DNA of 32,029 bases from Desulfotignum sp. (GTDB taxonomy: Bacteria; Desulfobacterota; Desulfobacteria; Desulfobacterales; Desulfobacteraceae), in contig JAIPDY010000004.1 of the NCBI GenBank assembly GCA_021737445.1, positions 1 through 32,029 of the forward strand, written 5' to 3'. Position 1 is the stretch's first letter, and each line of letters starts with the position of its first letter. Below the pieces are notes generated by a model. It was not told where the DNA came from and did not search any database. It saw only the letters and a program-made list of their open reading frames with translations. Made by a program: the position numbers and the translations under genes. Below, piece after piece: positions 9-24,764 of the stretch.

Positions 9-737
9 ATGGGGGCATCAGATGTGCAGGCCATTGAGTGGCTGGCCAGGGAACTGCCCAATGCCCGGATCCGGATCTCCTATGACAGCCGGCGGACCCG
101 GCTGCATGCCAAGGCCTGGCATTTCCGGCGGGATTCCGGGTTTTCCACGGCCTACATCGGGTCGGCCAACATGTCCCATGCCGCGATGACCAGCGGGCTG
201 GAATGGAACCTCAAGGTGACCTCCCAGGACCTGGGCCATATCCTGGAAAAATTTTCCGCTGAATTTGAGACCTATTGGCACAGCCGGGAGTTCCTGCCCT
301 ATGATGCGGCCGATCCCGTGCCGTTCCGCCAGGCCATCGAACGTGCCCGGAAAAAGGATGGTGCGGGTCCGGCTGTGTTTTTTGACTTGCAGCCCCATCC
401 TTTCCAGGAACGCATTCTTGAGAAACTGGCCCTGGAGCGGACGTCCCGCCGCTGTTTCAAGAACCTGGTGATTGCCGCCACGGGCACGGGAAAAACCGTG
501 ATTGCCGCATTTGACTATCAGCGGTTTCGCCGGGACAACCGGGGCCAGGCCCGGGGATACACCATCCTTATTTTTGCCCGGCCGAAGAAAAAACACAATA
601 ACTGCACGGTGCCGTTTGTGTTTTTAGGACCGGCCAGGCATGTGAGCCACCAAAAAGAACGGCCCATCCAGATGGTATGGCAGCTGAGCAGTCCCATGCC
701 TGTGGAGTTGTTTGAGGAGAACAAAAGGGGCGGGTGA
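9..737 (+). pseudogene. DEAD/DEAH helicase with N-terminal PLD-like domain and C-terminal DUF3427-like tail, internally deleted; 5' end may lie outside the window
   Basis: PLD-like HAKAWHF...IGSANMS, then Walker A IAATGTGKTVIAAFDYQRF, then an abrupt jump to a DUF3427-like end (TILIFARPKKKHNNCTVPFVFLGPARHVSHQKERPIQMVWQL...LFEENKRGG). Helicase motifs Ia-VI are absent. Confidence 0.75.
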
Positions 738-738
738 T
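679..738 (+). repeat. Repeat R1 copy a: 3' end of DUF3427-type helicase gene
   Basis: ggcagctgagcagtcccatgcctgtggagttgtttgaggagaacaaaaggggcgggtgat recurs with few mismatches at 2809-2868; shorter matches at 4628-4638, 9332-9350 and 13167-13185. Confidence 0.8.
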
Positions 739-776
739 GGAAATCCATCATCACCTGTTGAAATCATCTGATGAAA

Positions 777-805
777 TTGACATAAAAATGCAGAAATGCT
801 AATTT
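777..805 (+). promoter_or_regulatory. Putative sigma70-type promoter for the 832-1035 gene
   Basis: TTGACA (777-782), 17-nt spacer, TAATTT (800-805). Confidence 0.4.
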
Positions 806-831
806 TTCTTTAAATATAAAAGGATTGAATC

Positions 832-1035
832 ATGCAGAATGCAATAGAAATAAAACACCTTACCAGAGAGGAAAAACTCAGGATGGTGGATGCTTTGTGG
901 GCGGATTTATTATCAGAAGAGGAACTCCTCGAATCACCCGCCTGGCATAAGGCGGCTCTTCAGGAAACAGAGAAGCGCCTTGTAGAGGGTAAAGAGAGAA
1001 TTCTGGACTGGCATACGGCCAAAAAAGAAAGATAG
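832..1035 (+). CDS. Addiction-module component (TIGR02574-like antitoxin), no adjacent toxin
   Basis: 67 aa, LTREEKLRMVDALWADLLSEEE...SPAWHKAALQETEKRL...WHTAK typical of this family; no RelE/ParE-like ORF follows. Confidence 0.7.
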   Translation: MQNAIEIKHLTREEKLRMVDALWADLLSEEELLESPAWHKAALQETEKRLVEGKERILDWHTAKKER

Positions 1036-1185
1036 TTACCACATGCCACCGGATGCTTTCAAGAAGATTTCCACATGCCGTCTACCTATGTCCAGAGATC
1101 CATTGAACAGCTTATTGTATGAAATAAAGGGAAATTTGATGGTTTTGTTTATCCAAATAGTATAAAAACACTCTTTACAAAAGGG

Positions 1186-1578
1186 GTGAAGATGCCATAT
1201 ACTTTCTTAAAACTGTTCATGAGGGCATGCAAACATGACCGGAAAAATGTGATCTTGTGGGGAACGGTGCTTGATGATGCTGAAAGAGATTTCAATTTAC
1301 GAACTGCAACTCAGCTCTATGAATTCATAGCACAAGGCGGCCTCGAAAATGTGACACATCAAAACACAAAGGAATGGGAAAAAAACCCGAAACCGGAAAA
1401 CCCCATATTGGTTCATGCCTATACATTCAGGACAATGTGTAAAATCGGTTACATGGCAATCATGCACAATAATTTGACAAAGAAATGGATTATCAAATCT
1501 TTTAAACGCTCTACCGATTCAAACCCGACCATGCAGATAGCACTGGAAAAAGCATTAATTGATTTGAAAGGAAAATAA
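1186..1578 (+). CDS. Hypothetical protein, first gene of a tight three-gene operon
   Basis: 130-aa ORF ending 2 nt before the next ORF; no recognised family. Confidence 0.6.
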   Translation: MKMPYTFLKLFMRACKHDRKNVILWGTVLDDAERDFNLRTATQLYEFIAQGGLENVTHQNTKEWEKNPKPENPILVHAYTFRTMCKIGYMAIMHNNLTKKWIIKSFKRSTDSNPTMQIALEKALIDLKGK

Positions 1579-1580
1579 AA

Positions 1581-2204
1581 ATGGAACAAGTCAGCTGCCC
1601 GGCCTGTGGGGATAACAACCTTGAAAAAAATACAATAAAAAAATCACTCCATGAACCATATGGCGGATCAAAAAATATTGATATAGTCTGTTATACGTGT
1701 AATTTTTGCGGTTTCTCCGGAGACATCTTCAATGAAAACGAGAAAGATCTTCAGGCCGCGATTGATGAACTTAAGGCCAACTCGGTTAAAAATATTTTAG
1801 AAAATTTTCAGAAGCAGCACTATAATTTTTCAGCGATCGAACGAGCACTTGAAATTCCTCAAAGAAGCCTCTCCAAATGGAAAAGCGCGTCCAAACCATC
1901 CGCTTCAGCGGTTGCGCTGTTAAAATATTTACACCTTTTCCCCTGGTTGATAGAGGTGGCGGAACATAAATTTGATTTTAATTCTGCCCAGCGTATCCAT
2001 ATTTCAGATGCATTTAATCAGTTGATCGGTCAGATGACCTTCAACGAAGATGCTCGGGGGTTTGAAACAACCACCACCATGGAAGTCTTGAGATTGAAGA
2101 TTGAAAAAAAATTTGATGCTGATTTGCAGGAAGGGGATGACCAGGATTTCGGGTTTTCTTTTATCAATCAGCGAAACGAATGTTTGGCAACTGTACAGGA
2201 ATAA
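1581..2204 (+). CDS. Zinc-ribbon plus HTH-like protein (MqsA/YgiT-type architecture suggested)
   Basis: CPACG...CYTCNFCGF zinc ribbon followed by helix-turn-helix-like NFSAIERALEIPQRSLSKWKSASKPSASAVALLKYL. Confidence 0.6.
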   Translation: MEQVSCPACGDNNLEKNTIKKSLHEPYGGSKNIDIVCYTCNFCGFSGDIFNENEKDLQAAIDELKANSVKNILENFQKQHYNFSAIERALEIPQRSLSKWKSASKPSASAVALLKYLHLFPWLIEVAEHKFDFNSAQRIHISDAFNQLIGQMTFNEDARGFETTTTMEVLRLKIEKKFDADLQEGDDQDFGFSFINQRNECLATVQE

Positions 2205-2206
2205 CA

Positions 2207-2653
2207 ATGAAACTGATCAATTTTATTATATGTGATGATATCAGGCAGGAACTAGGCAACAAACTTTCTTTGATGGGGGTTTATTCTGATTCCATAAATT
2301 TTCAATCAGTGGCTGAAAAAGATGGCCAGTGGCCAAAAACAAAGCGGATTGGGATATACGTATTGATTGAAACAGAAGAAAAGGAAAACTTAAGAGACAT
2401 CCAATCATTTGAGATTGAGATTGATTATAACGGTGAGGTTCAAAAAATAGGAGGAAGCGACGTTCCACCTCCCAACCTGAAAACACAAAAAGGGGTGGCC
2501 ATTCAAGCCATTTTTGAAAGATTCAAATTCAAAGAGCCCGGCACGATTCTTTTCTCAATTCAATTCTTTGATAAAAAAGGCGGTAAACTTTTCAAAGCCG
2601 AATCCCCTAATCCTTTAAAAGTTGAAGAAACGATTCTCCCCGTTAAAAACTGA
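2207..2653 (+). CDS. DUF6941-like protein
   Basis: MKLINFIICDDIRQELGNKLSLMGVYSDSI resembles the DUF6941 N-terminus; ATG at 2207 lies 2 nt after the upstream stop. Confidence 0.6.
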   Translation: MKLINFIICDDIRQELGNKLSLMGVYSDSINFQSVAEKDGQWPKTKRIGIYVLIETEEKENLRDIQSFEIEIDYNGEVQKIGGSDVPPPNLKTQKGVAIQAIFERFKFKEPGTILFSIQFFDKKGGKLFKAESPNPLKVEETILPVKN

Positions 2654-2675
2654 ACCTATCCAGCATTCTTTCTTT

Positions 2676-2772
2676 GCGCGCCATTCCGTTCGGCAGGCAT
2701 TTATACGACCCGCTCCAGCTCCGACCTGGAGACCCGTCCGTGATCTTGAACATCTTTGTGGTATCCAACACC
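2676..2772 (+). repeat. Repeat R2 copy a: degenerate coding fragment
   Basis: gcgcgccattccgttcggcaggcatttatacgacccgct...ccgtgatcttgaacatctttgtgg matches 8521-8630 with mismatches and an indel of about 11 nt. Confidence 0.7.
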
Positions 2773-2808
2773 CCGGTCCATGAAATGGAACATCTCTGGG
2801 GGTCACAA

Positions 2809-2868
2809 GGCAGCTGAGGCATCCCATGCCAGTGGAGATGTTTGAGGAGAACAAACGGGGCGGGTGAT
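2809..2868 (+). repeat. Repeat R1 copy b: 3' end of DUF3427-type helicase gene
   Basis: ggcagctgaggcatcccatgccagtggagatgtttgaggagaacaaacggggcgggtgat; near-identical to 679-738. Confidence 0.8.
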
Positions 2869-2955
2869 AAGGATTCAGGTTCGCTGGACCTGGAGCCGGT
2901 TGCAACTGCTGGTGAACAAAAACATTGACACTTTGTTCATAAACATATACCGTTC

Positions 2956-4020
2956 ATGAAAAATGAACACTCTTATTTTATGAACAACGTCACGGCTATG
3001 GAAAAAAAAATACTCAGGCAGGCGATAGAAGCTTTTAAGGAGAACTTTGGTTTTCAAGTGGAAATCATAGATTTTCAGCATGATAATGCTGATTTGAGGA
3101 TCGAAGCAGCAATAAAGATGACTATCCAAAAAAAGGAACTGACATTCCATGCAGAAATAAAACCCACAGTGAATAGATCTGTTATCGGTATCCTGATGCA
3201 GCATAAGAATGATTTTTCCCAGCCCCTGCTGCTGGTCTCTCATTATATAAATCCGGTAATGGCTGAAAAATTAAAAGAGAATGATATCAATTTTATTGAT
3301 ACTGCCGGAAATGCATACATCAATGCACGGCCTGTTTTTATCTTTGTGAAAGGGAACAAAGCAGGAAAATCACCGGCCGCACCCTCCAAAGGCAAAGCAT
3401 TTACCAAATCAGGTCTGAAAATGATATATGCCCTGCTCTGTGACAAAAATCTGTTAAACAGACCCTATAGAGAGATTGCCGGTGCATCCGGGGTTGCACT
3501 GGGGACAGTGGGGCAGGTGATCGAAAATTTAAAAGAACTGGGGTTTATTATCGATTTGGGCACACGGGGAAGGAAGCTGACAAACAATGACGCGTTATTC
3601 AATAGATGGTGCCTGGATTATACTGAAAAGCTGAAACCCAAACTGCTGCTTGGAAGATTTGAAGGGCCTGATGATTTCTGGAAGAACTGTCGTCTTGAAC
3701 CGGATCAGGGGCAATGGGGGGGTGAAGTAGCTGCGTTTAAGTTAACCGGCTATCTTAAACCGCAAAATGTGGTTTTATATGCAAAAGAGGAAAAATTGAG
3801 AGATATCCTGCTCCAGAACAGGCTTAAGAAAACAGAAAACGGGAATATTGAGATCTATAAAAAATTCTGGTCCATCGACGGCATGCAGGATAAGCCTTTC
3901 GTGCATCCGTTTATCATTTATGCGGATTTGCTGGAAATTAACAACCAGAGAACCATTGAAACGGCAAAAGTGATCTATGACCAGAATATCGCTGGATATT
4001 TCAGGAGCAGAGTTACTTGA
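2956..4020 (+). CDS. Type IV TA AbiEi-family antitoxin-like protein (orphan)
   Basis: 354 aa with NPVMAEKLKENDINFIDTAGNAYINARPVFIFVKG and a winged-helix segment PYREIAGASGVALGTVGQVIENLKELGFI; no AbiEii nucleotidyltransferase adjacent. Confidence 0.7.
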   Translation: MKNEHSYFMNNVTAMEKKILRQAIEAFKENFGFQVEIIDFQHDNADLRIEAAIKMTIQKKELTFHAEIKPTVNRSVIGILMQHKNDFSQPLLLVSHYINPVMAEKLKENDINFIDTAGNAYINARPVFIFVKGNKAGKSPAAPSKGKAFTKSGLKMIYALLCDKNLLNRPYREIAGASGVALGTVGQVIENLKELGFIIDLGTRGRKLTNNDALFNRWCLDYTEKLKPKLLLGRFEGPDDFWKNCRLEPDQGQWGGEVAAFKLTGYLKPQNVVLYAKEEKLRDILLQNRLKKTENGNIEIYKKFWSIDGMQDKPFVHPFIIYADLLEINNQRTIETAKVIYDQNIAGYFRSRVT

Positions 4021-4148
4021 ATCTGAAGCCTTTGATTATAAAATGGCCAGTATAAGGATCCTGGGCCGGGATTCTGGAGGCGCTTGTATGAAATCTGTAT
4101 AGAGTACTGCGGATAAACCACAGATTCTGAGCGTTCGCCTTTAAAAAC

Positions 4149-4178
4149 TTGACATGTACATACATATGTGCATATATA
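4149..4178 (+). promoter_or_regulatory. Putative promoter/operator of the brnT'-brnA operon
   Basis: TTGACA (4149-4154) and TATATA (4173-4178) with 18-nt spacer; AT-rich partly palindromic tgtacatacatatgtgcatatata between and after. Confidence 0.45.
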
Positions 4179-4187
4179 TAGTGTGCT

Positions 4188-4298
4188 ATGTTTGAATGGG
4201 ATAAATCAAAAGCCAATAAAAATCTGTTAAAACACGGTATTATTTCAGCACGTAAAGCCGTGCGTAGTGAGGTGAAGCAATATGAAAGCGAAATATGA
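4188..4298 (+). pseudogene. BrnT toxin with in-frame internal deletion (36 aa)
   Basis: Read directly: MFEWDKSKANKNLLKHGIISARKAVRSEVKQYESEI*. BrnT N-terminus (FEWDxxKxxxNxxKHGI) joined to BrnT C-terminus (RIISARxAxxxExxxYE). Confidence 0.75.
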
Positions 4299-4536
4299 TT
4301 TTAGCAAAGGCAAGCGTGGTGCAGTTCTCCCTCAAGCGGGGAATAAAGTCAGGATAACCATCAGGCTTGACCGTGATATTGTCGATTGGTTCCGGTCCAA
4401 AGTTGAGGAACAAGGAAGGGGAAACTATCAGTCGATGCTCAATGACGCCCTAAGAAAACACATTGAATACCAGGATCAACCCCTTGAAGAGGTTCTTCGT
4501 CGTGTTGTACGGGAGGAGTTACGCGCATCCCAATAA
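4282..4536 (+). CDS. brnA: BrnA-family antitoxin
   Basis: 84 aa: KVRITIRLDRDIVDWFRSKVEEQGRGNYQSMLNDALRKHI; overlaps the BrnT remnant as in brnTA operons. Confidence 0.8.
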   Translation: MKAKYDFSKGKRGAVLPQAGNKVRITIRLDRDIVDWFRSKVEEQGRGNYQSMLNDALRKHIEYQDQPLEEVLRRVVREELRASQ

Positions 4537-4540
4537 ATCA

Positions 4541-4641
4541 TGGCTGTGCCGGACCTTGGTGCACTGGCAGTCCCAGTCCAATGCGGCCCTGGATTCGCCC
4601 ACCGGACAGAACCTGGTGCATCACAGCAGGGCGGGTGATAC
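4541..4641 (+). pseudogene. DUF3427 helicase C-terminal fragment
   Basis: LVHWQSQSNAALDSPTGQNLVHHSRAG is the block normally just upstream of TILIFAR in DUF3427 proteins; ends in gggcgggtgat, as in the R1 gene end. Confidence 0.65.
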
Positions 4642-4683: not shown

Positions 4684-5505
4684 ATGAGATTTTGCAAAAC
4701 ATATGAATTTGAATTCCGTATTCAGGGAATCAAACTTGGATGGTCTCTTGCAGGCCCTCCTCTTATGACAGTTTACTGCTTTATTTTTGATAATATCATG
4801 ATTGATACAGGTCTTTCCCATATGGAAAAAGAAGTGGCCGGCATTGCACAGGAAAAGAAAATCGATCGGATTTATCTGACGCATCACCATGAAGACCATT
4901 CAGGAAATGCAGCACATATTAACAAGTCTATTGGTGCAGACGTATATGGACACAGGCTGACCGCAGAAAAACTTAAAAAACCCTATGCCATTTTACCTTA
5001 TCAGAAATATGTCTGGGGAAGGACAACGCCGGTACGTGTAAAAAGATTTCCGCAGACCATTGAAACACCATCAGGCAAAATGATTCCTGTCCATACGCCG
5101 GGTCATGCAAAGGATCATACGGTTTTTTTTCTGCCTGAAAAAGGAATTCTTTTCTCAGGGGATCTCTATCTGGCAGACCACATTAAATTTTTCAGATCAG
5201 ATGAGAACATGGGAATTCAGATCGAATCATTGAAAAAAGTGACAAATCTGGACTTTAACACGCTGCTTTGCGGCCACAACCCCAGGCAGAAAAACGGCAG
5301 AAAACATATTCAATCCAAACTTGAATTCATGGAAAATTTTTATGGTAATATTGTTTATCTCTGGAAGAAAGGTCTTCCTGAAAAGCAGATTTTCAATGAA
5401 CTGAAGCTCAAAGAAGCCTGGTTTACAAAATATTTCTGTTTTGGCAATGTGAGCATGATGAACGGGGTAAGATCAGCTATCCGCCATTATGAGAGTCAGA
5501 ATTAA
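4684..5505 (+). CDS. MBL-fold metallo-hydrolase
   Basis: THHHEDHSGN, HTPGHAKDH, FSGDLYL, LLCGHNP motifs. Confidence 0.9.
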   Translation: MRFCKTYEFEFRIQGIKLGWSLAGPPLMTVYCFIFDNIMIDTGLSHMEKEVAGIAQEKKIDRIYLTHHHEDHSGNAAHINKSIGADVYGHRLTAEKLKKPYAILPYQKYVWGRTTPVRVKRFPQTIETPSGKMIPVHTPGHAKDHTVFFLPEKGILFSGDLYLADHIKFFRSDENMGIQIESLKKVTNLDFNTLLCGHNPRQKNGRKHIQSKLEFMENFYGNIVYLWKKGLPEKQIFNELKLKEAWFTKYFCFGNVSMMNGVRSAIRHYESQN

Positions 5506-5647: not shown

Positions 5648-7564
5648 TTGATTGAAGAAACCTTAAAGCGAACATTCGGATTTGAAACATTCAAAACCGG
5701 CCAGCGTCAAGTAATAGAAAAGATTACAGCCGGTAATTCAGCTGCGTCCATTTTCCCCACAGGCGCAGGGAAATCCCTTTGCTATCAGCTGCCTGCGATC
5801 CTTGAACAGGGGATGACCCTGGTTGTTTCGCCGCTTTTATCCTTGATGAAGAATCAGATTGATTTTTTGAAAACGAAAAATATCCCTGCTGCGAAACTTG
5901 ACTCCGGGATGAGTGCCCAAGATTACCGGGAGACGCTTGAAGCGGCACGGACGGGACAATTGAAGATTCTGATGATTGCGGTGGAACGGTTTAAAAATGA
6001 AAGATTCAGAACGCAGCTCCGGCAGATGAATGTATCCTTGCTTGTGGTTGACGAAGCCCATTGCATATCTGAATGGGGCCACAATTTCAGACCGGATTAT
6101 CTTAAAATTCCTTTGTATCAAAAAGAATTCGGAATTAAAAAGGCCTTGTTGCTGACAGCCACAGCAACACCGGCGGTCATTGACGACATGTGTGAAAAAT
6201 TTGCAGTCAGCCGGGAAAATGTCGTGAAAACGGGTTTCTACAGGGAAAATCTGTTTCTTCGCATACGCCCTGTGGCTGAAGAAAAAAAAGACGCGCTGCT
6301 TCAGGAGGTCCTGGCAGGAAAACCTGCCGGCCCGGCGATTGTCTATGTGACCCTGCAAAAGACAGCGAACCGGATCACTCAGATGCTCAGGAACAATGGA
6401 CTGGATGCAGCGGCATATCATGCAGGAATGAAAAATGAGGACCGGGAAGCGGTTCAAAATGATTTTATGGCCGGAAAAACCCGAACCGTCGTCGCAACAA
6501 TTGCATTTGGAATGGGGATTGATAAAGAAAACATTCGAAAAGTGATCCACTATGACCTGCCAAAATCCATTGAGGGTTACAGCCAGGAAATCGGCAGGGC
6601 AGGCAGGGACGGCAATCCGTCTCTGTGTTGCCTTTTTGGAAATAAAAACGGGGTGCCGGTCCTGGAAAATTTTGCATATGGAGATACCCCTGATATTGAT
6701 GGCATCCGCAAGGTATTGGAGGATATCACCCAATCCAAAGGGAGTCTGTTTGAATTTCGTCCATACGCCGTAAGCCGGAAGTCGGACATCCGGCTGCTGC
6801 CGCTGAAGACCCTGCTGGTTTACCTGGAAATGGCCAACATCATTTCACCCAAATATACATATTTTGAAATTTATGCGTTCAAATACCTGATCCCTGCCCG
6901 GGCCATCATTGAAAAATTCAAAGGTGAACGGGCGCAGTTCGTAAAAACTATCCTGGATAATTCCAAAACCGCCAGGACATGGACCCAGATCGACATAGAC
7001 AATGCGGTTGACGAATCAGGCGCTGACCGGCAGCGGGTTCTCACGGCCCTGGAATATTTTCATGAAAAAAAATGGATAGACCTTCAACCGAAATCTGCTG
7101 TGGAAGTTTTTGAAATACGCAATTCGGCATTTGATCCGGAATCGACAGCCAGGGATCTCACAGATCTTTTTCTCGAAAAGGAGAAAAAAGAAATCTCCCG
7201 CCTCCATGCCATGGTTGAATTCTTTGAAACAGATCAGTGCCTGGCCAAAAGTTTATCCGGCTATTTTGGAGAACGGTTGGACAATAACTGCCGGAGATGC
7301 TCGGTCTGCATGGAGAAAAAACCGGTTAAACTGGTATCATCACAACTTCCTTCCCTGGAGAGGATGAACTATCATGCCCTTGTTCAACCTTTGCTTGACA
7401 CGGCAGATTCACCCGTGTCCGTGACCCTTGCGACACGGTTTTTATGCGGAGTTTCCTCCCCCCGCCTGGTCGCGTATAAAGCCAGGCAGATGCCGGGCTT
7501 TGGCAGACTCGAAGCCTGGCCGTATAAATCTGTTGAAAAATGGGTCCGGTTGAATCATGGGTGA
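5648..7564 (+). CDS. recQ: RecQ-family ATP-dependent DNA helicase (TTG start)
   Basis: FPTGAGKSLCYQLPA, VDEAHCISEWGHNFRPDY, TATATP, GMGIDKENIRKVIHYDLPKSIEGYSQEIGRAGRDG. Confidence 0.95.
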   Translation: MIEETLKRTFGFETFKTGQRQVIEKITAGNSAASIFPTGAGKSLCYQLPAILEQGMTLVVSPLLSLMKNQIDFLKTKNIPAAKLDSGMSAQDYRETLEAARTGQLKILMIAVERFKNERFRTQLRQMNVSLLVVDEAHCISEWGHNFRPDYLKIPLYQKEFGIKKALLLTATATPAVIDDMCEKFAVSRENVVKTGFYRENLFLRIRPVAEEKKDALLQEVLAGKPAGPAIVYVTLQKTANRITQMLRNNGLDAAAYHAGMKNEDREAVQNDFMAGKTRTVVATIAFGMGIDKENIRKVIHYDLPKSIEGYSQEIGRAGRDGNPSLCCLFGNKNGVPVLENFAYGDTPDIDGIRKVLEDITQSKGSLFEFRPYAVSRKSDIRLLPLKTLLVYLEMANIISPKYTYFEIYAFKYLIPARAIIEKFKGERAQFVKTILDNSKTARTWTQIDIDNAVDESGADRQRVLTALEYFHEKKWIDLQPKSAVEVFEIRNSAFDPESTARDLTDLFLEKEKKEISRLHAMVEFFETDQCLAKSLSGYFGERLDNNCRRCSVCMEKKPVKLVSSQLPSLERMNYHALVQPLLDTADSPVSVTLATRFLCGVSSPRLVAYKARQMPGFGRLEAWPYKSVEKWVRLNHG

Positions 7565-8468: not shown

Positions 8469-8520
8469 AGTTACCGGCTGCTGATCCCGGCAAGCTGACA
8501 CCCTGGCGGTTTGCCGGGCT

Positions 8521-8630
8521 GCGCGTCATTCCGTTCGGCCGACATTTATACGAACCGCTGCTCTATCTGGCCGGCGCCGGCCTGGAGCTCCTTCCGTGAC
8601 CCTGAACAGCTTTGTGGATTTTATAACACC
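8521..8630 (+). repeat. Repeat R2 copy b: degenerate coding fragment
   Basis: gcgcgtcattccgttcggccgacatttatacgaaccgct...ccgtgaccctgaacagctttgtgga matches 2676-2772. Confidence 0.7.
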
Positions 8631-8650: not shown

Positions 8651-8678
8651 TAAGTTTATACTTTGAAATATAAACTTA
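8651..8678. promoter_or_regulatory. Inverted repeat, probable operator of the phd-vapC operon
   Basis: taagtttata-ctttgaaa-tataaactta: perfect 10-bp arms 18 nt upstream of the ATG. Confidence 0.55.
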
Positions 8679-8695
8679 AATGGTTGGAGTTTTTT

Positions 8696-8932
8696 ATGAA
8701 AGCCACAGCAAAAGATCTTCGGTTTCATTCAAAAGAAATTTTGAACACTGTAAATCGAGGGGAAGAAGTCATAATTACCTACCGGGGCAAACCCTGTGCT
8801 AAATTAGTTCCTTATGATGAGTTTGAAAAGGATAAAAACATCAAATCTAATTTATTTGGGATGTGGAAAGACAACGATATTATTGATGATGTTGATAGTT
8901 ATGTCCGAGATATAAGAAAAGGAAGATTTTAG
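8696..8932 (+). CDS. Phd/YefM-family antitoxin
   Basis: MKATAKDLRFHSKEILNTVNRGEEVIITYRGKPCAKLVPYDEFE; ATG at 8696 preferred over the 8663 ORF start. Confidence 0.85.
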   Translation: MKATAKDLRFHSKEILNTVNRGEEVIITYRGKPCAKLVPYDEFEKDKNIKSNLFGMWKDNDIIDDVDSYVRDIRKGRF

Positions 8933-9310
8933 ATGATTGTAGATACTGATGTTTTGATCTGGTATCTAAAAGGGAACGAAAACGCATTTGAGGCCATTGA
9001 GGAGTTAAATAAATTCTCCATTTCAGTCGTGACCTACATGGAACTCGTTCAAGGAATGAGAAATAAAAATGAATTAAACAGATTACGTCAAGCCCTTAAA
9101 ATTTGGAATACCAAAATCATCTATATCTCGGAGGATATTTCCGCAAAAGCAATGTTCTTTGTAGAACAACATTTTCTAAGCCATTCAATGCAATTAGCTG
9201 ATGCCCTTATCGCTGCAACGGCAGTCTTTTGTGGAGAGCCTGTTCTTACAGCTAATGACAGGCACTACCGGATTCTAACGGATCTTCAAATTAAAAAATT
9301 CAGACCATAA
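8933..9310 (+). CDS. PIN-domain toxin (VapC-like)
   Basis: MIVDTDVLIWYLKGN...SVVTYMELVQG...LADALIAATAVFCGEPVLTANDRHY. Confidence 0.9.
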   Translation: MIVDTDVLIWYLKGNENAFEAIEELNKFSISVVTYMELVQGMRNKNELNRLRQALKIWNTKIIYISEDISAKAMFFVEQHFLSHSMQLADALIAATAVFCGEPVLTANDRHYRILTDLQIKKFRP

Positions 9311-9357
9311 CTCTGTAAGGCTCAAATTCGTGCCTGTGGAGATGTTTGAGATGACCG

Positions 9358-9414: not shown

Positions 9415-9648
9415 ATGACCACATTATCTAAAAGATCAACCATATACCTGGATCCTGCCCTTCATCAGGCATTGCGGCTCAAAGCGCTTGAGACATCAAG
9501 ATCAATGTCTGAAATTATCAATGAGGCTTTAAAAGAAGCGCTGTCTGAGGACGCCGAAGATCTCGCCGTTTTTGATGAAAGGGCAGGCGAGCCTTTGATA
9601 AGCTACGAGCAGATGGTCAAGAGATTGAAAAAAGATGGCCGTTTATAA
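9415..9648 (+). CDS. Ribbon-helix-helix antitoxin
   Basis: KRSTIYLDPALHQALRLKALETSRSMSEIINEALKEAL. Confidence 0.8.
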   Translation: MTTLSKRSTIYLDPALHQALRLKALETSRSMSEIINEALKEALSEDAEDLAVFDERAGEPLISYEQMVKRLKKDGRL

Positions 9649-9874
9649 AATTTTTTTCAAAGATTCAGTGTGGAAAGATTTTAAATCAATTCCTGATAAG
9701 GATCTTACTAAAATTTTAGCCTGTATTGAATCTCTTGGCAAAAATTCGCGCCAGCCTGGATGTAAAAAATTAAGCAAACAGGAGCGGTATCGGCTCAGAT
9801 ATGGAAGATATAGAATTATCTATTCTATTCAAGAAGATGAGCTGACGATTTGGGTCGTTAAAGTCGGTCTTTGA
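9635..9874 (+). pseudogene. RelE/ParE-family toxin, C-terminally truncated
   Basis: KIFFKDSVWKDFKSIPDKDL...KKLSKQERYRLRYGRYRIIYSIQEDELTIWVVKVGL*; the usual tail after VVKVG (HR..VY. type) is replaced by recQ-derived sequence. Confidence 0.75.
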
Positions 9875-9963
9875 CGACATGTGTGAAAAATTTGCAGTTG
9901 AATTCTTTGAAACAGATCAGTGCCTGGCCGTATAAATCTGTTGAAAAATGGGTCCGGTTGAAT
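9871..9963 (+). repeat. Composite scar of three recQ segments
   Basis: 9871-9898 = 6180-6207; 9897-9929 = 7214-7246; 9922-9963 = 7514-7555, all identical by eye, in recQ order. Confidence 0.9.
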
Positions 9964-10029
9964 AATTAGGTGAATTGCATGGGCAAAATCGTTTGTAAAC
10001 GAGGCGGTTTTCAGTGATGTGACGCTGGT

Positions 10030-10209: not shown

Positions 10210-11274
10210 ATGAAAGTATTGGCGATCAATTCAAGCGCCAGAATCGGCGGCGAAAGCAAAACTGAATTCATTTTAGATTTTTTGGTGAAAGGTATGAAAG
10301 AAGAGGGTGCTGAAGTAGAGGTGGTGAATATTTTCAAAAAAAAGATCAATTACTGCATCGGGTGCTTTACCTGCTGGAGCAAAACACCGGGGGAATGTGT
10401 ACATAAAGATGACATGACCAAAGACCTTTTTCCCAGGTACATGGCCAGTGATCTATGTATCCTGGCAACGCCGCTGTTTCACTATACTGTAAATGCGAAT
10501 ATGAAAACCTTTATTGAACGCACATTACCATTTGTTTTGCCATTTTTTGAATTCCGGGAAGGGGTAACGACACATCCCCTCCGCCAGGTGCCTCCGCCTG
10601 TAGTTGCAGTGTCTGTTGCCGGTTTTCCTGAATATTCTGTATTTGAACAGCTGAGTTCGTATATGCATTATCTGTATGGCAAACATTTGCGCGCAGAAAT
10701 TTATATCCCCGGCGCTGAGAACCTGGTACAGAAAACCCGGACACCACTGGTAAAGAAAGTGCTGGATGCGGTCATCCAGGGGGGGAGGGAGCTGATCAGA
10801 AATAAAAAGATCTCTGCCGGGACAATGGAACTTATCAATACACCCACCTCAGATTTTAAAACCATGGCCACTCTGGGAAACGCGTTCTGGCAGACCTGTA
10901 TTGACGAGGGCGTAACACCGAAAGAATTTTACAAGCGGAATATGGTACCCAGGCCGAACTCCCTGGAGAGTTTCCTGACACTGATGAAAGAAGGATTTAA
11001 TCCGGAAAAAGCAGACGGCTTTAAAGGCTGCTGCCAGTTTGTTTTTTCCGGCAAACACGAAGGCACCTGTTATTATGAAATAAAGAACAACGAAATCCAT
11101 TGCGGCATGGGATCTGCCTCACGGCCTGATATTACCATCACCACCCCTTTTGAGGTCTGGATGGACATTTTAACCAAAAAGGCAGACGGGGCGGAAATGT
11201 TTATGGCGCAAAAATACACGGTTGAAGGCGATCTCGATTTGTTGATAAAATCAGGTGAATTTTTTGGTAAATAA
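10210..11274 (+). CDS. Flavodoxin-fold NAD(P)H-dependent oxidoreductase with C-terminal SCP2-like domain
   Basis: MKVLAINSSARIGGESKTEFILDFLVKGM...CIGCFTCW...ATPLFHYTVNANMKTFIERT; C-terminus CCQFVFSGKHEGTCYYEIKNNEIHCGMGSASRPDITITTPFEVWMDI is SCP2-like. Confidence 0.8.
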   Translation: MKVLAINSSARIGGESKTEFILDFLVKGMKEEGAEVEVVNIFKKKINYCIGCFTCWSKTPGECVHKDDMTKDLFPRYMASDLCILATPLFHYTVNANMKTFIERTLPFVLPFFEFREGVTTHPLRQVPPPVVAVSVAGFPEYSVFEQLSSYMHYLYGKHLRAEIYIPGAENLVQKTRTPLVKKVLDAVIQGGRELIRNKKISAGTMELINTPTSDFKTMATLGNAFWQTCIDEGVTPKEFYKRNMVPRPNSLESFLTLMKEGFNPEKADGFKGCCQFVFSGKHEGTCYYEIKNNEIHCGMGSASRPDITITTPFEVWMDILTKKADGAEMFMAQKYTVEGDLDLLIKSGEFFGK

Positions 11275-12667: not shown

Positions 12668-12800
12668 GTGAACTTGACCGGGCAAAACGACGCGCCCGGC
12701 GAAACCCTTGAACACTGCCTCAACCGGGAAATAGCCGAGGAACTGGCCATCAAGGTGACCGTGCACCATTCCCTGGCTGAAAATGGCCGGACCCGGCGGC
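12668..12800 (+). pseudogene. NUDIX hydrolase fragment
   Basis: APGETLEHCLNREIAEELAIKVTVHHSLAENG resembles the Nudix box GETxxxCxxREIxEELxI. Confidence 0.55.
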
Positions 12801-13076: not shown

Positions 13077-13134
13077 AATCGGATGAGCGAGGTTTGGCGG
13101 CTAACAAAAATCTGCAACGAAAATACTGCTTCAG

Positions 13135-13185
13135 AAGGCTGCTACCAGTTTGTTTTTTCCGGCAAAATGGTATGGCAACTGAAGC
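13135..13185 (+). repeat. Composite scar: SCP2-gene segment joined to helicase-tail segment
   Basis: 13135-13166 matches 11024-11055 with one mismatch; 13167-13185 atggtatggcaactgaagc matches 672-690. Confidence 0.7.
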
Positions 13186-13270: not shown

Positions 13271-14536
13271 ATGTTTAAATTCATTCATGCGGCGGATATT
13301 CATCTGGACAGCCCGTTGCGCGGGCTGTCCAGATATGAGTCCGCACCTGTTGATGCCATTAGAGACGCCTGCAGAAGGGCGTTTAAGAACCTGGTGGATC
13401 TGGCTATCGAAGAAAAAGCCGCTTTCGTGCTTCTGGCCGGGGATCTCTATGATGGGGACTGGAAAGATTACAGCACCGGGATATTTTTCAGCCGGCAGAT
13501 GGGGAGACTGCATCAGCAAGGCATACGGGTATTTGCTGTCGCAGGAAACCATGATGCCGCAAACCGGATGACCAAAGCGTTACAGACGCCCGCTAACATG
13601 AAGATGTTTTCCGCCGGCAAAGTGGAAACCGTCATACTGGAAGACTTTTCCGTGGCTATTCATGGGCGCAGCTTTAAAACCCGGCATGTGGACGAAAACC
13701 TGGCAGCGGGATTCTGCCAGGGCCTCAAAGGCATGTGCAATATCGGGCTGCTGCATACCAGCCTTGACGGCCGGGAGGGACATGCCACCTATGCGCCCTG
13801 CACCCTGGATGATCTGCGCTCCAAAAATTACCAGTACTGGGCCCTGGGACATGTCCACAAGCAGGAAATCGTTTCCGAAGATCCCTTTGTGGTGTTCCCG
13901 GGGTGCATACAGGGCCGCCATATCCGGGAAAGCGGTCCCAAAGGCTGTGTGAAGGTCACGGTTGAGGAAGACACTGTCACACATATGGAACCGGTGTCTC
14001 TGGATGTCCTGCGGTGGACCCTGACAAAAATCGATCTGACCGATATGGAAGACCCCCGGGATGTCCTGGAAAAAGTCCGGGAAGCCATTGAACAGGAACG
14101 GGCACTGGCAGAGGACAGGCCCCTGGCTATGAGAATAAAACTGACAGGGGCCACAAACCTGTCTGATCACCTGGCTGCGTTTCCGGAAAAACTGGAACAG
14201 CAGATGAAAGCGCTGGGTGCTGAAACCGCCGGCGATGAGGTCTGGATTGAACGGGTTGAAAACAGGACCCGGGGAAAATATGATCTAAAAACCGCCCTGG
14301 CTGATGACACGTCACCGGGACAACTGCTCAGAGCCATTGTTTCAACCCCTGATGATCCGGGCCGGATAGACGGCCTGGAAGACAAAATAGCGGAGCTCAG
14401 GCAGAAAGTGCCGCCGGAAGCCTTTGGCACGGGATCTGTTTTGGATTTGAGCGACAAAGAAGCGCTTGAACGGATCACCAGGGAAGCCAAAAAAATGCTG
14501 ATCGGCAGACTGCTGGCAGCAGGGGGAAAAAAATGA
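13271..14536 (+). CDS. SbcD/YhaO-like DNA repair metallophosphoesterase
   Basis: FIHAADIHLDSPLRGL, LLAGDLYDGDW, VAGNHDA, WALGHVHK motifs. Confidence 0.9.
   Translation: MFKFIHAADIHLDSPLRGLSRYESAPVDAIRDACRRAFKNLVDLAIEEKAAFVLLAGDLYDGDWKDYSTGIFFSRQMGRLHQQGIRVFAVAGNHDAANRMTKALQTPANMKMFSAGKVETVILEDFSVAIHGRSFKTRHVDENLAAGFCQGLKGMCNIGLLHTSLDGREGHATYAPCTLDDLRSKNYQYWALGHVHKQEIVSEDPFVVFPGCIQGRHIRESGPKGCVKVTVEEDTVTHMEPVSLDVLRWTLTKIDLTDMEDPRDVLEKVREAIEQERALAEDRPLAMRIKLTGATNLSDHLAAFPEKLEQQMKALGAETAGDEVWIERVENRTRGKYDLKTALADDTSPGQLLRAIVSTPDDPGRIDGLEDKIAELRQKVPPEAFGTGSVLDLSDKEALERITREAKKMLIGRLLAAGGKK
13304..13332. repeat. Perfect 12-bp inverted repeat inside the sbcD-like CDS
   Basis: ctggacagcccg-ttgcg-cgggctgtccag. 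Confidence 0.9.
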
Positions 14537-17500
14537 GAATCAACCGCCTCGATCTCATTGCTTTCGGCCGGTTTACAGAAAAATCCCTGGACCTGTCTGA
14601 AGGTGATCTGGGGCTGCATCTGATTTACGGGGATAACGAAGCCGGGAAAAGTACCTCATTAAGGGCACTGACCGGCTGGCTGTTCGGCATCCCCGCCAGA
14701 ACAAGCGATAATTTTGTTCATGCAAATCCCCAACTTAGGATTGGCGGGGAATTGCAGCTGTCCACCGGAGAAACAATCGAATTTGTCAGGAGAAAAGGGA
14801 ACAAAGACACCCTGCTTGCATATGGAAGTGACGAACCCCTGGATGAAACCCGGTTCAGGCGGTTTCTACCACCAGGTATCGATGAAACCATTTTCACCAG
14901 ACTCTGGGGGATTGACCATGAAAGACTGATTGCCGGCGGCCAGGAACTGCTGGAACAGTCCGGGGACCTGGGCCAGGCCCTTTTCAGTGCAGCGGCCGGG
15001 ACGGCAAATCTTCGGGATATATTGATGGAAATGCAGAACAGTGCCGTTGACATCTTCAAGCCCCGGGGTTCCAAAGCGGTCCTGAACAGGGCCATCTCAG
15101 ACTATAAAGATGCGCTGAAAAGGATGCGGGAAGCCACCCTGCCGGTTTCTACCTGGAAAGCGCTGCAAAATGATTTATCCAAAATCAGTGCGGCTATCAA
15201 AGAGGTGGAAAAAAGAATCGATGAAAAGAACAAACTAAAAAGCGGTCTGAAACGAATCAACCGTGTCAAAGGGGCCCTGGCCCAGCGGCGGAACTGTCTG
15301 GCAAAAATGGAAGCGTTGGGCACGGTCCTGCTGCTGCCGGAAGATTTTTCAGATCAACTGAAAACAGCCCGAAAAACGCTTCAACACGCACTGGATTTAA
15401 AAGAACGCCTCGCGGCCAAACGGGATGCCCTGAATAAGGAATCCGGATCTTTGCAGGTTCGGGAGGATTTACTGAAAAATGAAGATGCCATTTCACGGCT
15501 TTACAAAGAACTCGGTGCGGTTGAAAAAACCCTGGCAGACCGGCCCGGTCAGGATGGAAAACGGCGGCTGCTGCGAAATGAAGCCCAAACCCTGCTCAAG
15601 GGGATCCGGCCGGACATGGGTCTGGATGACGCCGATCATCTCAGGCCGTTTCTCAACAATAAAAAATGGATCTCTGAACTGGCCCGGAAAAAAGGGTTGC
15701 TCATCCAGAAACGAGACGGATACAACGCCGCATTAAAGGATCTTCAGGACGAAATAAAATCGCTTGAAAGCAGACTGGAAAATCTGCCGGCAGGTGACAT
15801 CGATTTGACGGAGTTGAAAGCGGCCGTTGCCTCAGCACGCAAAGCCGGCGACATCGAGCAGCGCCTGAATGACATGACAACACAGGCGGCACAGGAAAAA
15901 GCCGCCTGCGAAAACGAATTTGCAAGACTGGGGAACTTTCACAAGGATGCAGACGCCCTGTTATCCATGGGGCTGCCGGTTGCTGAAACCCTGGACCGGT
16001 TCGAAAAAGAAACCGATGACCTCATGGAGCAATCCAGAACCGCATCCCAAAAAAAACAGGAGATCGAAGCGGAAAAAAGGCAGGCGGAACAGGAGTTAAA
16101 AGCGCTGCTGTTAAAGGAAGATGTGCCCAAAATTGCCGACCTGGAAGCATCCCGAAAAGACCGTGACCAGGGATGGGCCTTGATCAAACAGATATATATC
16201 GAGCAGCGGGATGTCGGCGGCCGTCTTTCAAGTGATGCCCATGACTCTGATTTGCCGGCCGTGTATGAAAAAAAGGTTGCGCTGGCAGACCATATATCCG
16301 ACCGCCTGAGACTGGATGCGGACCAGGTGGTGAAACGGGCAGGCCTGGAGGCGGCAATTGATCACATGACCTCTCGCATCGCTGATCTGTCAACGGTTTT
16401 GGAAAAGATAAATCAGGCCGGGGCTGATTTTGACACCCGATGGGCCGCTATCTGGAAACCGCTGCATGTTGCTGCCGGCACCCCCCGGGAAATGAAGCAG
16501 TGGGTGCTGAAAGCGGAAAAACTGATCGAAAAGATTCATGCGGCAAAGGGGGTTTCAGCCAGAGAAAAAAAACTGCGGGAAGAATGCGGTCATCTGAAAA
16601 CAGTGATGTCCCGCCAGATCGCCGGGTTTGACCCGTCGGCAAACATTCAGGGAAAGAGTCTGGAAGCACTGATTTCCCTGTGTGAACAGCGCATTGAAAA
16701 AGAGCAGAAAGCCCGCGACAGACGTCATAAAACTGCCGATTTACTGAAAGACCTTCACATCCGGCTGAAGCGGACCAGAGATGACCTGAAAACGGTTGAA
16801 ACCGGTTTGATCACCTGGACGGGTGAGTGGGAAAAAGCCATCTCCGGACTGGGACTGAAACGGGATGCCCACCCGGAAACCGCCATGGAAACCTTTGATC
16901 ACCTGGTGTCGTTCTTTAAAAAATTTGATCAGTCTGAAGAGCTGCGTAAACGAATTTACGGCATGGACAAGGTCAAAGAGGAATTTGACAGACGCGTTCA
17001 CGAATTTGCCGGCAGTATGGAAATGAAGACAGAGGACAAGGATGCTTTGACAATTGCCGGCCAACTCCATCGGGACCTGAATGCGGCCCGGGAAGCCCGG
17101 GCAGGTTTGATCAAAATCAAAGAACAGCTGGACGAAAAAAAACAGGAGATCAAAGATGTCTTCATCACCATCCGCCAGTCACAGGAAAAAATCAGTGAAC
17201 TGAAAACCCGGGCCGGGGTGGATACTGTGGAGGAACTGATCGAGGCCGGTGAAAAATCAACCCATAAACGGGAGCTGCTGAAACAGGTTGAAACGCTGGA
17301 ACAGGAACTGAACCGCAATGGGGACGGCTTTGGCATTGAAGCGCTGGAAAAAGAGGTGAACGGTTCAGATATTGACGGCATTGAAGGGGACATAGACAGA
17401 ATATCCAGTGAGCTGGGAGAGCTTCAATCCGAGAGAGACACGCTGCGGGACCAGCGGCAGACCATTCAGCATGACATCCGGCAGAATGACGGGAGTGCCG

Positions 17501-18045
17501 TGGCAGCCAACGCGTCTGAAGAAGCAGAAGCACACCTTTCCAGCATCACGGAAAATGCCGAGCAGTATCTGCGTTTCCAGATCGCCTCCCTTATCCTGGA
17601 ACAGCAGATAGAAACGTACAGAAAAGAAAACCAGGCCCCTGTTTTAGCCAGGGCCGGTGAACTGTTCTCAACACTGACACGGGGATCTTACGCAGGCCTG
17701 AGGGATGAACTGGATGCTTCCGGAAAGCCGGTGCTGCTGGGTGTCCGCCCGGACGATCAGGAGGTGGCCATCGACGGCATGAGTGACGGATCCCGGGACC
17801 AGCTCTATCTGGCCCTGCGCATGGCCACGCTTGAGCAGCATCTGAAAAAGGGGGAACCCATGCCTTTTGTCGTGGATGATATCCTGATCGGGTTTGATGA
17901 TCACCGCACCCGTGTCTGCCTGGAGGTGCTGGCACAACTGTCAAGGTGCATCCAGGTCCTGCTTTTTACGCACCACAGACGGGTACTGGAGCTGGCAGAT
18001 ACCTGTAATGAAACCGACAGGATCTTTCAGCACGCGCTTTTCTGA
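14533..18045 (+). CDS. SbcC/YhaN-like AAA ATPase
   Basis: IYGDNEAGKSTSLRALTGWLFG, long coiled coils, C-terminal DGMSDGSRDQLYLALRMA and FVVDDILIGFDDHR. Confidence 0.9.
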   Translation: MRINRLDLIAFGRFTEKSLDLSEGDLGLHLIYGDNEAGKSTSLRALTGWLFGIPARTSDNFVHANPQLRIGGELQLSTGETIEFVRRKGNKDTLLAYGSDEPLDETRFRRFLPPGIDETIFTRLWGIDHERLIAGGQELLEQSGDLGQALFSAAAGTANLRDILMEMQNSAVDIFKPRGSKAVLNRAISDYKDALKRMREATLPVSTWKALQNDLSKISAAIKEVEKRIDEKNKLKSGLKRINRVKGALAQRRNCLAKMEALGTVLLLPEDFSDQLKTARKTLQHALDLKERLAAKRDALNKESGSLQVREDLLKNEDAISRLYKELGAVEKTLADRPGQDGKRRLLRNEAQTLLKGIRPDMGLDDADHLRPFLNNKKWISELARKKGLLIQKRDGYNAALKDLQDEIKSLESRLENLPAGDIDLTELKAAVASARKAGDIEQRLNDMTTQAAQEKAACENEFARLGNFHKDADALLSMGLPVAETLDRFEKETDDLMEQSRTASQKKQEIEAEKRQAEQELKALLLKEDVPKIADLEASRKDRDQGWALIKQIYIEQRDVGGRLSSDAHDSDLPAVYEKKVALADHISDRLRLDADQVVKRAGLEAAIDHMTSRIADLSTVLEKINQAGADFDTRWAAIWKPLHVAAGTPREMKQWVLKAEKLIEKIHAAKGVSAREKKLREECGHLKTVMSRQIAGFDPSANIQGKSLEALISLCEQRIEKEQKARDRRHKTADLLKDLHIRLKRTRDDLKTVETGLITWTGEWEKAISGLGLKRDAHPETAMETFDHLVSFFKKFDQSEELRKRIYGMDKVKEEFDRRVHEFAGSMEMKTEDKDALTIAGQLHRDLNAAREARAGLIKIKEQLDEKKQEIKDVFITIRQSQEKISELKTRAGVDTVEELIEAGEKSTHKRELLKQVETLEQELNRNGDGFGIEALEKEVNGSDIDGIEGDIDRISSELGELQSERDTLRDQRQTIQHDIRQNDGSAVAANASEEAEAHLSSITENAEQYLRFQIASLILEQQIETYRKENQAPVLARAGELFSTLTRGSYAGLRDELDASGKPVLLGVRPDDQEVAIDGMSDGSRDQLYLALRMATLEQHLKKGEPMPFVVDDILIGFDDHRTRVCLEVLAQLSRCIQVLLFTHHRRVLELADTCNETDRIFQHALF

Positions 18046-24425: not shown

Positions 24426-24764
24426 ATGCCAACACCTGTCATACGCACCTACTCACGCTATAGCCGCGATGCGGCTGCCTTGCTGGGCGTGTTGATTCGA
24501 AAAGCGCGTAATGAGCGTAAACTGACTGCTCAGGAACTGGCGGAGCGCGCCGGTATTTCCAGAGGATTGCTGCAACGCATTGAAAAGGGGAATCTCAAAT
24601 GTGAAATCGGGGCCGTGTTTGAAGTGGCAGCCATTGCCGGCATCAAGCTGTTTGATGCTGATGAGAGTGCTATGATGAAGCACCTGGAACGAACCAGGGA
24701 AACGCTGGCACTCCTGCCAAAATCTGTTCGAAAGAGATCAAAACCGGTGCACGATGACTTCTAA
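24426..24764 (+). CDS. HipB-like XRE-family antitoxin
   Basis: LGVLIRKARNERKLTAQELAERAGISRGLLQRIEKGNLKCEIGAVFEVAAIAGI. Confidence 0.85.
   Translation: MPTPVIRTYSRYSRDAAALLGVLIRKARNERKLTAQELAERAGISRGLLQRIEKGNLKCEIGAVFEVAAIAGIKLFDADESAMMKHLERTRETLALLPKSVRKRSKPVHDDF

Follow-up and report, generated by a model that had tools for sequence, protein, structure and literature searches.

Defense islands and hotspots combine a conserved flank with variable restriction-modification (R-M), Abi and toxin-antitoxin content and with horizontal transfer. The locus described here shares these features, with sbcDC as the conserved flank. Unlike in such islands, its spacers consist mostly of eroded fragments from a few restriction genes, found in one orientation and genus-wide. 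Insertion with long target duplication has been reported for Helicobacter pylori R-M genes (Nobusato 2000, as described in PMC1643837 and PMC4978471). Here, too, cargo of the R-M and toxin-antitoxin type is located between directly repeated partial gene copies. However, the copies are old, diverged and internally deleted, and many occur in series. Homology-facilitated illegitimate recombination has been reported in naturally competent species and in E. coli conjugation (PMC3240628). One homologous anchor combined with a microhomology joint would produce junctions similar to those at this locus. Integron cassette arrays also contain serial small toxin-antitoxin cassettes split by a recurring sequence. 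In contrast to them, this locus has no intI next to it, its recurring helicase tail does not fold unusually, the boundary is variable and the scars are of mixed origin.

The locus is a fast-changing block of toxin-antitoxin and defense genes adjoining sbcDC in Desulfotignum sp. and sister species. The window, which is the whole stretch of DNA analyzed, is an entire contig (C172, 32,029 bases) of a 3.0 Mb draft genome (G000). Most genomes of relatives are also drafts, their contigs frequently end at the sbcDC locus, and one genome per species was compared. Gene functions were assigned by family matches or resemblance alone.

Cargo upstream of sbcDC

The window contains the following features.

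1-737, + strand: helicase copy with its 5' end cut by the contig edge; in-frame internal deletion joining nt 1152 to nt 3006 of the gene, with a 4-nt overlap at 551-554
679-738, + strand: helicase tail copy 1, the final 60 nt of the gene through TGAT
832-1035, + strand: addiction module component (Unstab_antitox); copies in four other species are 96-98% identical in nucleotides
1192-2653, + strand: three-gene operon (1192-1578, 1581-2204 and 2207-2653); the last gene matches DUF6941 weakly, below cut-off
2675-2817, + strand: res scar, made of two type III restriction (res) gene pieces stitched together, directly before tail copy 2
2809-2868, + strand: helicase tail copy 2, the final 59-60 nt of the gene, stop included
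2956-4020, + strand: AbiEi-type antitoxin gene (AbiEi_2), present in four relatives just as eroded pieces
4122-4536, + strand: brnT remnant and BrnA antitoxin (BrnA at 4282-4536)
4548-4639, + strand: helicase fragment 3, nt 2924-3000 (4548-4624) fused to the final ~15 nt of the gene (AGCAGGGCGGGTGAT)
4684-5505, + strand: metallo-beta-lactamase-fold gene
5648-7564, + strand: RecQ helicase gene
8483-8617, + strand: res scar, again two type III res gene pieces stitched together
8663-9310, + strand: Phd/YefM antitoxin and PIN toxin pair
9331-9350, + strand: 20-nt helicase tail remnant (nt 3152-3171); the full gene end is kept at the same place in G011 and G002
9415-9874, + strand: RHH antitoxin and ParE toxin pair
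9865-9966, + strand: RecQ scar of three stitched pieces, with overlaps of 2 and 8 nt; the last piece ends 6 nt or less from the RecQ stop
12694-12783, + strand: MutT (NUDIX) scar, a piece of the gene that precedes the helicase in relatives
13125-13166, + strand: scar of the FMN reductase gene located at 10210-11274
13271-14536, + strand: sbcD (metallophosphoesterase domain), conserved right flank of the island
14533-18045, + strand: sbcC, named from position and resemblance without a domain scan; with sbcD it forms the conserved right flank (13271-18045)

Cargo upstream of sbcD differs among six species (G000, G002, G003, G004, G008 and G011) in comparisons anchored on sbcD, the one flank compared. 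As a gene list and not as statistics, the toxin-antitoxin and defense families across these loci are Unstab_antitox, AbiEi, BrnA, Phd/PIN, RHH/ParE, PIN, Fic, RhuM and restriction genes. The original prediction, made from the window alone, had named several of the cargo genes. Its addiction component, AbiEi and BrnA assignments were confirmed, with matches to Unstab_antitox, AbiEi_2 and BrnA. The three-gene operon has a family match for one gene alone, the DUF6941 match listed above, and no counterpart in the relatives' loci examined. Downstream of sbcDC, a diverged (77%) copy of an HTH (HipB-like) gene from the G011 island is found at 24426-24742.

Compared with other species, sbcD in the window is 90-94% and sbcC 87-93% identical over the aligned parts. 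Intact shared cargo, including BrnA, the beta-lactamase-fold gene, RecQ, Phd/PIN and the Unstab antitoxin, is mostly 96-98% identical. Lower values are found for RecQ in G003 (93.6%) and for RHH/ParE (just 76%). At four-fold degenerate sites the tested cargo is 91-99% identical between species, versus 76-80% for sbcD (window against other species) and 84% for sbcC. G008 and G011 are close (sbcD 99%) and were treated as one comparison. Since cargo identity exceeds that of sbcD and sbcC, the shared cargo tested has been exchanged horizontally after the species split. Phage or plasmid vehicles were considered: there were no phage matches, and among the matches listed the plasmid ones are weak and located around the beta-lactamase-fold/RecQ part of the query.

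The helicase gene and its fragments

An intact copy of the helicase gene is present in a relative (G011). It encodes 1,047 aa from its ATG (1,063 codons from stop to stop) and contains PLDc_2, ResIII, Helicase_C and DUF3427 domains. It matches PADLOC mREase_IV with an E value of 1.9e-198, and its predicted domains comprise the full set of the PADLOC type IV restriction class (PLD-helicase-DUF3427). In the window, the ORF at 3-737 encodes the PLD domain and the beginning of the ResIII helicase domain, and then continues in frame with the DUF3427 C-terminus. It corresponds to nt 599-1152 followed by nt 3006-3192 of the intact gene. This ORF is therefore not an intact helicase gene: it is internally deleted and, because the window is a whole contig, it lacks its 5' end at the contig edge.

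The 60-nt direct repeat predicted between 679-738 and 2809-2868 is real, with 90% identity (self-BLAST E 1.6e-16). It matches the last 59-60 nt of the intact copy, in agreement with its assignment to the 3' end of a DUF3427 helicase gene. A third fragment, placed at 4541-4641, does belong to the same gene, but it has a different make-up, with an internal segment joined to the last ~15 nt, and it ends at 4639. Its junction of BrnA to nt 2924 is also present in G004, G006, G008 and G011. The other scars went unnoticed in the earlier reading: the second res scar, the 20-nt helicase remnant, the RecQ, MutT and FMN-reductase scars, and the identity of 2675-2817 as res pieces.

Across the genus, helicase tails are found again and again between cargo units, as was anticipated. 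With DNA 541-760 as the query, matches were found in 13 of 13 genomes of the genus and in none of 26 genomes outside it. A 90-nt tail probe showed the same distribution across the genus, with the weakest signal in G005. A 37-nt tail pattern (up to 3 mismatches) was present in 10 of the 13 genomes, and the reversed control pattern had no matches. Across an order-wide sample, 5 of 292 genomes match; three of these five are outside the genus, with one match each. The six species named above carry 5-14 helicase or res stretches each, within ~17 kb of sbcD. All 54 stretches share the strand of sbcD and, with one exception, are located upstream of it, between toxin-antitoxin and defense genes.

Helicase tails are also found away from sbcD; in G011, for example, they occur at positions 185 kb and 3,958 kb. 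Diverged tails outside the island on the G011 chromosome (L119:10061-10159 and L120:10418-10506) have neighboring ORFs that resemble HTH antitoxins and a ParB/methylase gene. At three loci (L136, L006 and L036), related sequence (TGCTGAAGAGCA or similar) is located immediately after the helicase stop. In L136 it runs into a ParB-like gene, which is also downstream of the helicase in L147 and resembles L120:8403-9830 (N6/N4 DNA methylase domain). This ParB-like/methylase gene is possibly an old operon partner of the helicase.

Joins, erosion and the 3' bias

The 15 joins within helicase fragments have a median overlap of 9 nt, compared to 0 in 300 simulated joins at 8% divergence (p=5e-5). Such short homologies are the pattern left by deletion between short direct repeats, and they therefore point to this type of deletion. 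One-sided recombination would also yield the microhomology seen, so these data cannot tell it from decay.

Partial copies were found for nearly all island genes, including RecQ, FMN reductase, MutT, AbiEi, an HTH gene, Fic and RhuM. The helicase differs from the others in its bias. Its fragments reach the 3' end in 21 cases versus 4 for the 5' end; for the other cargo genes pooled, the numbers are 20 and 15. The final 60 nt of the helicase occur ~25 times in the loci searched, versus 0-5 times for most of the gene. These fragments share ancestry, so the counts are not independent. The junctions of BrnA to nt 2924 and of the res end to nt 3067, for example, are inherited by several loci. The tails are 60-270 nt long and in direct orientation. 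Their starts vary from about nt 2674 to nt 3150, the 3' end alone being near-constant, and several unrelated cargo units start within a few nt of the same helicase TGAT.

Three other candidate signatures were rejected. Mini-helicases selected through in-frame deletions would fit the window, G004 and G006, where the reading frame is kept, yet ~5 of 13 joins overall are in frame, near the one-third expected. The island holds 25 repeat pairs, and this density alone proves nothing because 3 of 15 control stretches from this chromosome reach comparable counts, with 11 to 64 pairs. A palindrome is present at helicase nt 3036-3086 and is not exceptional within the gene.

The abutment of cargo units on the helicase stop within a few nt would be expected of a site-specific cassette system, integron-like or of the tyrosine-integrase island type, whose attachment site would be the helicase gene end. 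Integrase genes of the integron type, scoring above the curated NCBIfam cut-off, do exist in G000 (C135:311-1249, L153) and in G011 (C1:2496132-2497070, L154). However, in G000 the integrase gene sits on a different contig from the island and in G011 it is 1.6 Mb distant; its surroundings contain no helicase fragments, and no recombinase or integrase genes were found among the array genes scanned. The left ends of the tails vary widely, and no fixed attachment core is present at both ends. The tail was also rejected as a folded recombination site, its single-strand fold being no better than that of shuffled sequences (z -0.2 to 1.0). A simple attC scan found none in the locus; it also found none near the integrase and is therefore uninformative. 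The variable tail end, the ordinary fold and the distant integrase make a site-specific system very unlikely.

Duplication, exchange and decay

We consider it probable that the locus is a transfer hotspot beside sbcDC in which dead restriction genes are shortened by short-homology deletion. The helicase tails are eroded remnants of helicase gene copies. They are most likely scars of recombination and deletion within a swap zone, and not a dedicated insertion device. DNA with a type IV-like PLD-helicase-DUF3427 gene, a type III res gene and numerous toxin-antitoxin modules would have been repeatedly transferred between species and rearranged here. Several partial helicase copies would thereby have built up in the same orientation between toxin-antitoxin units, and deletions between short direct repeats would later have trimmed the dead copies. 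The piece nearest the next cargo unit plausibly survives because a deletion that extended into the promoter or antitoxin of this unit would do harm. The series of fragments, their shared orientation, the transfer of cargo between species and the short homologies in the joins are observed. We infer the order of events, the reason for the persistence of the 3' ends and the origin of the extra copies, which may have arisen by insertion with target duplication or by unequal recombination. Against this reading, simple erosion requires neither the 3' bias of the helicase nor the cargo starts near the same TGAT. In addition, the 9.3 kb upstream of sbcD in G012 contain no helicase fragments, and the tail of this genome is located on another contig.

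Insertion with long target duplication offers another origin for the series. Each cassette would insert at the helicase end and duplicate tens to hundreds of bp, keeping the full gene and displacing a partial copy, so that repeated insertions build a series. The layout in the window and in G011 is consistent with this, as partial copies flank cargo there, though they are diverged and eroded. The H. pylori R-M genes provide the precedent, as described in the reports cited above. The best case is L140, from a different family of the same order. Among 19 helicase loci outside the genus, 18 are without extra helicase fragments (several have little flanking sequence), and L140 is the sole exception. 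In L140 (4444-13507), a C5-methylase and DUF4928 pair, which is R-M-like, is located between a 139-nt 5' partial helicase copy (95% identity) and the full gene. Toxin-antitoxin-like genes are located between the helicase 3' end and a tail copy, which is internally deleted with an 11-nt overlap. By its arrangement this independent case resembles the insertions of H. pylori R-M genes. However, its 5' copy is not continuous with the native upstream sequence. The duplicated stretches at these loci differ by 5-15%, so that no recent event is visible, and the comparison of one genome per species contains no pair of empty and filled strains. We regard target duplication as unlikely to be the main origin of the series.

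The tails could also serve as anchors of short homology. Recombination between incoming and resident tails, either RecA-dependent or of the one-sided homology-facilitated illegitimate type, would then swap cassettes. Cargo does move between species, the length and direct orientation of the tails suit such a role, and one BrnTA cassette is preceded by different tail variants (L028, L024 and L128) and by other left neighbors (L026 and the window). However, many tails are short or 10-15% divergent, no breakpoint has been mapped inside a tail, and the microhomology is expected from one-sided events and from decay alike. We find such swapping improbable. A broader version treats the helicase 3' end as a cassette-exchange anchor, where toxin-antitoxin and defense units recombine via tails beside a complete helicase, in an integrase-free system that arose in at least two families; this is distinctly unlikely in our view. 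Target duplication and tail-anchored exchange are not mutually exclusive in nature.

The original prediction had proposed an insertion hotspot in which each acquisition leaves a helicase tail behind. The variable content beside sbcDC and the horizontal transfer of cargo bear out the hotspot. The data do not bear out the second part: RecQ, MutT, FMN-reductase and toxin-antitoxin genes leave fragments too, the starts of the tails vary, the joins carry deletion-type microhomology, and neither an integrase nor a fixed site was found at the array. Neither cassettes without repeats nor repeats far from variable genes were found in clean form, but some G011 tails are located elsewhere and some cassettes adjoin res, RecQ or other scars.

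The integrase-free entry and exit of defense and toxin-antitoxin genes in chromosomal islands are poorly understood. Short repeats found between cassettes may be scars of erosion and not attachment sites, which is a warning for the interpretation of such repeats. The locus represents a natural series of scars, in at least six species with the same flank, in which it might be possible to distinguish acquisition from exchange and deletion.
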